The notes under the pieces: generated by a model
Told to the model about the DNA's origin: nothing
What the model saw: the letters and a program-made list of their open reading frames with translations, nothing else
Databases searched by the model: none
In this document: positions 36,177 through 38,175 of the stretch, piece after piece
Layout: every line of letters starts with the position of its first letter
Numbering within the stretch: the first letter of the stretch is position 1
Translations under genes and position numbers: made by a program
DNA from: Haloarcula sp. CBA1129
GTDB lineage: Archaea > Halobacteriota > Halobacteria > Halobacteriales > Haloarculaceae
DNA length: 64,000 bases
Reading direction: 5' to 3'
Assembly (NCBI RefSeq): GCF_008729015.1
Contig: NZ_RKSM01000001.1
Coordinates: 2,170,001-2,234,000 of the forward strand

Positions 36177-37514
36177 ATGAGTGACAGAGAAACGTGGGCC
36201 TCACGGCTCGGGTTCATTCTCGCAGCAATCGGTAGCGCAGTCGGCCTCGGAAACATCTGGCAGTTCCCGTTCAAGACCGCGACAAACGGCGGCGCAGTGT
36301 TTCTCGTCTTTTACCTCGTCGCCGTATTGCTCATCGGCTTCCCGGCAATGCTGGCAGAATTCATCATCGGGCGGCGAACGAACCGCAATGCCGTCGACGC
36401 GTTCGCGGAACTCGGGTTCAAGCAGTGGCGGGTCGTCGGTGGCCTGGGCGTCTTTACCGGGTTCTGGATTCTCTCGTATTACAACGTCGTCGGAGGGTGG
36501 GTCATGCGGTATATCCTCGGCAGTGCGACGGGGGCATACTTCGGAAACTCCGCGGAGTACTTCGGTGCCATCTCCAGTGGTCCGGAGGCCGTCGTCGGGC
36601 AGGCGTTGTTCCTGCTAGTCTGTGTCGGCATCGTCGCAGTGGGTGTCGAAGACGGTATCGAGAAGGCGACAAAGGTGATGGTTCCCAGTATTGTGATCCT
36701 CATGGTCGGGATGGCGGCCTGGGTCACCACACTCGAAGGAGCCGGGGCAGGCTACAGCTACTTCCTCTCACCGGACTTCTCGACGCTGGCGGCAAACGCA
36801 GGTGACCTGATCCCGTTCGCAGTTGGACAGGCGTTTTTCACCCTCTCGCTGGGGATGGCAGCCATGATTACTTACTCGTCGTACATCGGTGACGACGAAA
36901 GCCTCCCTGTTGATGGTGGTATCATCGTCGTGACGAACACGCTCGTCGGTGTGCTGGCTGGGCTTGTCGTGTTCCCGATCCTCTTCGCGATCAACGTCAG
37001 TCCCGACACCAGCGGCCCGTCGGCCATCTTCGTCGCGATGGCGTCGGCGTTCCCACAGCTCCCCGGGGGGCGACTCCTCGGCGTCGTGTTCTTCGGCGTT
37101 GTCCTCATCGCGGCGATCTCCTCTGCGATCAGCCTGCTAGAGGTTGCAGTCTCCTACGGCATTGACAACACGTCATACTCGCGGGTGCAGCTGTCAGCAA
37201 TGCTTGGGGTTGTGCTGTTCGCCTTGGGCTTCCCATCAGCCTGGGACCTAGCGTGGTTCGGCTGGTTCGACACGCTCGCGTACAAGCTGTTCCTCCCGCT
37301 GTCGGTGCTGCTCATCCTAGTGTTCGTCGGCTGGGTTCTCTCCTCCAATGCGGTTGCCGAGCTCCGACAAGGGACGGGTGGGCTTCGAGCGTTCGGTCCG
37401 ACTTGGCTCTGGATGGTCCGAACGGTGGTCATCCTCGGCGTCATCCTGACGCTGGCTCTCGGACTGCAGACGCTGTTCCTCGCCGAGGACCCGGCGATCA
37501 TCCCGCCGATATAA
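36177..37514 (+). CDS. Sodium:neurotransmitter symporter (SNF) family transporter
   Basis: A 445-residue transporter with about eleven to twelve helices. It begins with the family hallmark WASRLGFILAAIGSAVGLGN followed by IWQFP, where Na1/Na2 ions and substrate bind in LeuT. Archaeal members probably co-transport amino acids or other small amines with Na+. The substrate is unknown. An upstream extension in frame is basic and unlike the family, and the ATG at 36177 is preceded by its own TATA box. Confidence 0.93.
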   Translation: MSDRETWASRLGFILAAIGSAVGLGNIWQFPFKTATNGGAVFLVFYLVAVLLIGFPAMLAEFIIGRRTNRNAVDAFAELGFKQWRVVGGLGVFTGFWILSYYNVVGGWVMRYILGSATGAYFGNSAEYFGAISSGPEAVVGQALFLLVCVGIVAVGVEDGIEKATKVMVPSIVILMVGMAAWVTTLEGAGAGYSYFLSPDFSTLAANAGDLIPFAVGQAFFTLSLGMAAMITYSSYIGDDESLPVDGGIIVVTNTLVGVLAGLVVFPILFAINVSPDTSGPSAIFVAMASAFPQLPGGRLLGVVFFGVVLIAAISSAISLLEVAVSYGIDNTSYSRVQLSAMLGVVLFALGFPSAWDLAWFGWFDTLAYKLFLPLSVLLILVFVGWVLSSNAVAELRQGTGGLRAFGPTWLWMVRTVVILGVILTLALGLQTLFLAEDPAIIPPI

Positions 37515-37717
37515 GCGACACGGCCATCGGTTTCTCGCGGATTCGGACCGCCTTTGCCACAGTTTTGGTGACCGACCGGTGTAGGCAGTCGTCGCGGAAA
37601 ATAGTCACGTAGTCTGACAGGAATCCAGACAACGTTTTACGGGTGCGTTTTCAGCCGTGGCAGTCTGCATAAACAGGACAGTAGGACGGCGAATTGAGTG
37701 GGTTGGGGTACCGGAAG

Positions 37718-38035
37718 TCAGGACTCGCGCCATTTGTGGCCGCACTCGATGCAGGTGAACAGTCGAACCTCGTAGGAACCGCCCGGCTTCGGCAGCATCT
37801 CGTAGTAAGCCCGGTCGCTGTCACAGCCGTCCGCCGGACAGGACTCCTGCATTGTCTCGGTGGAGCGCTGGGTCGCGTCGGCCACAGCGGGTGCCCCGTC
37901 GTCGCGCTGTCCGTTCTGAATCGCCATCGCCGCCTCCGCTTGCGAGTCCCGCGACTCCTCGTTCTCACAGGAGCGACACAGCCATGTATCGCCCTCCGTG
38001 TGCATCATCGAACCACACTCGTCACAGAATTGCAT
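37718..38035 (-). CDS. TFS/RpoM-like transcription factor with altered C-terminal loop
   Basis: A 105-residue protein with an N-terminal zinc ribbon (Cys4, Cys7, Cys20, Cys23) and a C-terminal one (Cys66, Cys71, Cys95, Cys98), joined by a flexible linker. It looks like TFS, the archaeal TFIIS-type cleavage-stimulating factor. However, the loop between the last two Cys pairs reads KPGGSYEVRLF, where active TFS has the acidic Asp-Glu pair of the form RSADE. The first Cys pair of that domain is CX4C rather than CxxC. A non-catalytic or inhibitory TFS paralogue is therefore likely. The start is ATG 38035 (MQFCDECGSM). Confidence 0.88.
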   Translation of the reverse strand: MQFCDECGSMMHTEGDTWLCRSCENEESRDSQAEAAMAIQNGQRDDGAPAVADATQRSTETMQESCPADGCDSDRAYYEMLPKPGGSYEVRLFTCIECGHKWRES

Positions 38036-38175
38036 ATAAAGTGCGAATACACGGTTGTCGGATATATGTGTTAAGTTCCGATCTGTCGTGAGTTGCAGGC
38101 AGCCGCGCATGCTGACTGTCCTGACCAGTGTAGACTGTAAGCGGGTCCAGAGCTATGACACCATAGCAGACCGCC

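Follow-up and report, generated by a model that had tools for sequence, protein, structure and literature searches.

In the open-licence literature that we searched, TFS4 of Sulfolobus is the sole archaeal cleavage factor that has turned inhibitor. PMC5715097 reports TFS4 as restricted to Sulfolobales and states that its inhibition depends on two to three lysines in a tip that is strongly shortened, to 7 residues compared to 15 in TFS1. The same text describes that the catalytically dead TFS1-AA impairs processivity, that TFIIS-AA and acid-less GreA mutants inhibit in a dominant negative manner, and that tfs genes have multiplied in Halobacteria. According to PMC8448823, the lobe/jaw and the funnel are where TFS4 and its relatives contact RNA polymerase. 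Our literature search returned no paper on a haloarchaeal TFS that lacks the catalytic Asp-Glu pair (DE).

We observed a gene for such a protein in the window, by which we mean the whole 64,000-nucleotide stretch of Haloarcula sp. CBA1129 DNA that was analyzed, and we refer to this DE-less TFS paralogue as TFS-C. The first-pass annotation had described it as a TFS paralogue in which the catalytic Asp-Glu pair is replaced, and this description holds: the open reading frame occupies exactly positions 37718 to 38035 on the minus strand, with its ATG at 38035 and 105 codons plus stop, and the loop contains no DE. The program-made list of open reading frames placed the start further upstream (ATG at 38110, 130 amino acids), but the conserved start of the orthologues is 38035. 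Eight cysteines are present in two ribbons, as in the TFS/RPB9 superfamily. The protein consists of an RPB9-type N-terminal zinc ribbon (residues 1 to 30, minus strand 37946 to 38035; PF02150 30.9 bits, cut-off 25.2), a linker, and a C-terminal ribbon whose cysteine pairs are spaced CX4C and CX2C. The second zinc site reads C-PADG-C, the CX4C arrangement that had also been pointed out earlier (minus strand 37823 to 37840), and its spacer of four is found in 73/73 copies. This feature is not specific to the DE-less protein, however, since the DE-keeping TFS genes at four other loci (L129, L131, L132 and L133) share it. The C-terminal hairpin reads PKPGGSYEVRLF. Residues 80 to 95 (MLPKPGGSYEVRLFTC; minus strand 37751 to 37798) stand where active TFS has its DE hairpin, and within this segment the tip, residues 82 to 88 (PKPGGSY; minus strand 37772 to 37792), lies at the position of the catalytic DE of active TFS. 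The gene is flanked by what we take to be a Na+ symporter-like gene, ending at 37514, and on the other side by a minus-strand gene, presumably EamA-type transporter-like; both look unrelated to TFS-C.

A search of the whole genome with Pfam PF01096 recovered two further TFS genes, both with DE, at C1:302218-302532 (match at C1:302221; tip GSADEPPTRFF) and C1:2035263-2035577 (match at C1:2035461; tip RAADESETRFF). The first-pass annotation had allowed that TFS-C might be the only TFS of this genome and hence the active one, which is not the case. We aligned TFS-C with these paralogues (KQIRAADESETRFFTC), as had been proposed there, and found that its hairpin is one residue shorter and carries G/S in place of D-E; the stretch that reads MKQIRAADESETRFFTC in the second TFS gene is equivalent to MLPKPGGSYEVRLFTC in TFS-C. 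With the TFS model TIGR01384 (cut-off 64.75), TFS-C scored 41.2 bits, below the cut-off, compared to 76.2 and 71.7 for its own DE paralogues; the DE-bearing CX4C gene of L129 likewise fell below, at 59.0. With the TFIIS zinc ribbon model PF01096 (cut-off 21), TFS-C was again below at 17.6 bits, the own paralogues reached 62.6 and 63.4, and the DE-bearing CX4C gene reached 49.9. The DE pair is kept in 35/35 paralogues from 19 further carrier genomes, and carriers are therefore independent of the DE-less protein for cleavage. Two DE-bearing TFS genes were also obtained from 16 of the 19 other carriers examined.

We searched 391 sampled Halobacteria genomes at a cut-off of 1e-28 and found matches in 138, distributed over 49 of 86 genera. 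Eight of these genomes were excluded because they held only fragments, interrupted copies or ~50% identical relatives (G203, G354, G107, G339, G194, G255, G361 and G167). An intact copy at no less than 69% identity was thus retained in 130/391 genomes, and two such copies are present in five (G138, G202, G208, G210 and G356). In a sample of the phylum, 26/392 genomes matched, all 26 from the window's own order. Among 72,556 plasmid records there were 25 matches, 18 of them at 80% identity or higher, and among the matches listed RNA polymerase subunit M is the usual annotation of the plasmid copies. In a DNA tree of 77 rows, a branch with an SH-aLRT of 100 separates all DE-less copies from the other rows; the gene is short, and support is weak for most of the inner branches (49/73 open). 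The deepest copies, L129 of Halorarius litoreus and L131 of the MAG QH_7_66_36 (tip PEPRGS), are each followed directly downstream, in tandem, by a TFS gene with both DE and CX4C. The nearest outgroups of TFS-C are DE-bearing CX4C TFS genes, directly in tandem in two genomes, which points to a single origin by duplication. The simplest history would be one tandem duplication of a CX4C TFS gene, loss of DE, and then spread.

Compared to the window's genome, TFS-C is 88 and 89% identical in two genomes of another family (G040 and G056), where the DE paralogues are 62 and 64% (TFS-B) and 77 and 73% (TFS-A) identical. Among genus-mates TFS-B instead ranks above TFS-C, with 87-100% compared to 83-92%, and in the other order-level genomes the excess of TFS-C is smaller or absent (G059: 81, 80, 73; G053: 68, 63, 70). 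Genus labels on the TFS-C tree change 44 times, between the minimum of 27 and the shuffled mean of 55 (as low in 0/200 shuffles), and are thus clustered only in part. Thirteen genus-mates have both flanking genes matching at 85% or more; G009 is the only one with TFS-C at the window's site, 7/13 have a different stretch there, and 5/13 have short spacers, all five with TFS-C elsewhere in the genome. Judging by these comparisons, by the plasmid records and by the lack of any conserved neighbour gene, TFS-C moves horizontally between haloarchaea, on chromosomes and on plasmids. The different stretch contains a 71-amino-acid open reading frame in 6/7 of the genus-mates concerned: between the same two flanking genes, the site that corresponds to 37600-38150 of the window holds a conserved small membrane-type ORF at L139-L143 and L145.

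The stretch of ~90 nt upstream of TFS-C (about -90 to -1; minus strand 38036 to 38125) is common to loci in unrelated contexts. It includes a TATA-like element, cacatatatc (minus strand, 38061-38070), whose position 26-35 nt upstream of the start suggests a leaderless transcript. The promoter core occurs within four mismatches in 62/74 loci, and in its own genome the motif is found upstream of TFS-C only (at most three mismatches). Across the 74 loci, the -50 to -20 core has a mean majority fraction of 0.83-0.89, compared to 0.88 for third bases of four-fold degenerate sites in TFS-C. The core is no more conserved than these sites and thus gives no sign of special regulatory constraint, and our claim is limited to a promoter that travels with its gene. 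At L095, L096, L116, L123 and L127, the usual promoter gives way to one of a second type (~AAAAACCTATATTTGTCACG).

We clustered ORFs of 60 or more amino acids within ~6 kb of TFS-C across 76 loci (L057-L131 and the window), setting aside TFS-C itself and the out-of-frame clusters overlapping it. A conserved operon partner was rejected, as the commonest cluster was present at 10/76 loci in varied positions and orientations and the others at no more than 8. A block of ~900 bp around TFS-C (-213 to +683; L072:5788-6684 as reference) is common to several genera, often with internal deletions in relatives and, by eye, with a small hairpin at its 3' end. The 3' end was matched in 7/10 carrier genomes, at one place each and at two in G409, the 5' end in 4/10, at one place each, and neither end matched in the window's own genome. 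An IS200/IS605-like non-autonomous element had been suspected, but there is no multicopy family and there are no exact boundaries, and we therefore do not claim a transposon cassette. Plasmids of two species also carry sequence resembling the 3' end of the block, at two places in Haloplanus rubicundus and also in Halorientalis marina, and no TFS-C is annotated close to it. At L057, L074 and L105, the sequence directly after the TGA is replaced by a stretch beginning TACGGTTT; at L057 this stretch measures ~80 nt and has inverted-repeat ends, after which the usual downstream sequence resumes, as in a small insertion at the stop codon. An origin from viruses or phages was discarded: 50,697 phage records gave no match, viral contigs no confirmed one, and the PHROGs no good one.

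By sequence, TFS-C is homologous to TFS, RPC10, RPA12, RPB9 and TFS4, and the TFS4 chain 7oqy_Y was matched both by profile A1 (E 7.3e-8) and by Foldseek (E 8.2e-4). The AlphaFold model (pLDDT 76.6, pTM 0.39) consists of two moderately confident ribbons with an uncertain tip and arrangement; residues 81-90, which include the tip, are modelled poorly (mean pLDDT 64). Foldseek matched RPB9-type subunits, RPA12, the RPC10-type subunit of RNA polymerase III and TFS4, with a weak fold match (TM-score at most 0.39 among the matches listed). TnpB-like zinc-ribbon matches were dismissed as generic, and the PADLOC defence families gave no match of meaningful score, the only one being Cas12f at the level of the zinc ribbon (E 0.28).

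The replaced loop is maintained with great fidelity. We found PKPGGSYEVRLFTC to be identical in 71/73 aligned intact copies, and each of the two exceptions has a single substitution, which lies outside KPGGS. Over 69 full coding sequences, dN/dS, taken as pairwise counts over related sequences, was 0.227 for the whole gene, 0.158 for the N-terminal ribbon, 0.279 for the linker and 0.233 for the C-terminal ribbon. It fell to 0.092 in the hairpin and to 0.007 in residues 82-88, which makes the new tip the most constrained of the regions compared and the central linker the fastest-changing. With a normal level of synonymous change in the tip (pS 0.23), recent ancestry alone does not account for its identity. 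Purifying selection on the replaced tip is very strong, and a function other than cleavage is therefore likely. A neutral, decaying TFS duplicate would fit the decayed copies known from pNRC200 and from G016, as well as the interrupted or partial copies in G339, G194, G203, G354 and G107, but the overall dN/dS, its value at the tip and the identical loop in nearly all intact copies make this reading extremely improbable. By its selection pattern TFS-C is functional, and neither a chance product nor a decaying copy. The decayed copy on pNRC200 of Halobacterium salinarum NRC-1 (L160, ~2501-2942) lies between ISH8E and ISH27 transposases and is annotated in part as a short 'ATP-binding protein'. 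In G016, a second copy is a broken 3' fragment (L183, G016:C2:271900-273000; RPKPGGSYEGRLFTYVECGSKWRAS) and an intact copy is also present, and gain and decay thus proceed side by side.

The loss of DE argues strongly against cleavage by TFS-C, since the composite cleavage site cannot form without this pair. Together with the effects of TFS1-AA, TFIIS-AA and the GreA mutants, it leads us to favor, as somewhat probable, a non-cleaving, competing factor of the RNA polymerase funnel that would damp or retune transcription. The N-terminal ribbon would dock on the lobe/jaw of the polymerase, and the C-terminal ribbon would reach, as that of TFS does, into the funnel for NTP entry. In this funnel, the invariant Lys-Pro-Gly-Gly-Ser turn would take the place of the Asp-Glu pair, and its strict conservation suggests a defined contact in the funnel. 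Unable to complete the composite cleavage site, TFS-C would compete with the two DE-bearing TFS proteins and modulate RNA polymerase, most likely negatively, through slower elongation, stabilized pauses or backtracks, and less initiation. It would act when its own leaderless promoter is active, and would have arisen once, from the CX4C TFS duplication, to spread on chromosomes and plasmids as one gene together with its promoter. Polymerase binding, competition, inhibition and conditional expression are thus steps that we infer.

Other roles can be set against this proposal. TFS-C might instead resemble RPB9, as an accessory, non-cleaving RNA polymerase subunit that affects fidelity or trigger-loop dynamics and is not an inhibitor. 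RPB9 is a two-ribbon relative that has lost cleavage activity, according to PMC5715097, and the N-terminal ribbon of TFS-C scores above the PF02150 cut-off, with mammalian RPB9 among the best single-sequence PDB matches. We nevertheless consider this role unlikely, as the patchy, mobile and partly plasmid-borne occurrence (130/391 genomes) is unlike that of a core subunit, and it would give no clear reason for the frozen tip. The first-pass annotation had compared the protein to Sulfolobus TFS4 and suggested that it could inhibit RNA polymerase or act against stress or viruses, roles that would be conjectural for TFS-C. What stands of this likeness is the loss of DE beside active TFS, together with homology to the TFS4 chain; the lysine cluster is absent, and TFS-C has a single lysine (K83) compared to the two to three of TFS4. 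Its hairpin is just one residue shorter than in its own DE paralogues, compared to a shortening of about eight in TFS4, its net hairpin charge is +1 as against 0 and +1 in those paralogues, and the TFS4 model NF047723 gives it 26.3 bits at a cut-off of 120. An AAA mutant of TFS4 is inactive (PMC5715097), and full equivalence, as a global inhibitor that is induced by viruses or stress and acts through allosteric opening of the DNA channel, appears improbable. We also doubt that the zinc-ribbon scaffold has been co-opted for work outside RNA polymerase, such as the binding of nucleic acid or of a different protein. The C-terminal ribbon does fall below the PF01096 cut-off and the linker changes fastest, but both ribbons, the spacing between them and the hairpin residues beside the tip (E89, R91, F93, T94 and C95) are as in TFS.

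A non-cleaving, competing funnel factor could also have a more specific purpose, which we put forward as a tentative possibility of fairly low probability. As a single gene with its promoter circulating on plasmids and chromosomes, TFS-C might plug the polymerase funnel with its PGGS turn and override the host cleavage factors, to the benefit of the carrier replicon or of the attacked cell. It would then be a regulator of mobile-element type and the archaeal equivalent, in logic, of the secondary-channel factors that plasmids encode. Among the bacterial secondary-channel regulators TraR, Gfh1 and DksA, TraR is plasmid-encoded. The three are small, non-cleaving funnel factors, and comparable by analogy only, as their fold and polymerase lineage are unrelated and they are not homologous to TFS-C.

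TFS-C represents a second, independent loss of the catalytic pair, widespread and moving horizontally, and if the competing funnel factor proposed here is real, the funnel of archaeal RNA polymerase would be a recurrent control site. Its tip differs from that of TFS4 and is strictly conserved, and it would give a tractable haloarchaeal system in which genus-mates with and without TFS-C are natural controls. RPB9 of RNA polymerase II shares the two ribbons and the absence of cleavage activity, predicted for TFS-C, but is a constitutive subunit, whereas TFS-C is an optional, horizontally moving gene. The nearest paralogues, TFS/TFS1 (TIGR01384), reside in the same genomes and have the same length, two Cys4 zinc ribbons, linker and C-terminal hairpin; TFS-C differs in its missing DE, its hairpin shorter by one residue, its CX4C first pair, its scores below the TIGR01384 and PF01096 cut-offs, and its patchy and mobile occurrence. 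Sulfolobus TFS4 (NF047723, PDB 7oqy chain Y) is likewise a DE-less TFS paralogue beside an active TFS, while TFS-C is distinguished by the lack of a KKK tip, by far less shortening of the hairpin, by a separate origin inside Halobacteria and by its presence on plasmids. In conclusion, on the strength of these comparisons TFS-C adds a widespread and mobile member to the known theme of repurposed TFS paralogues.
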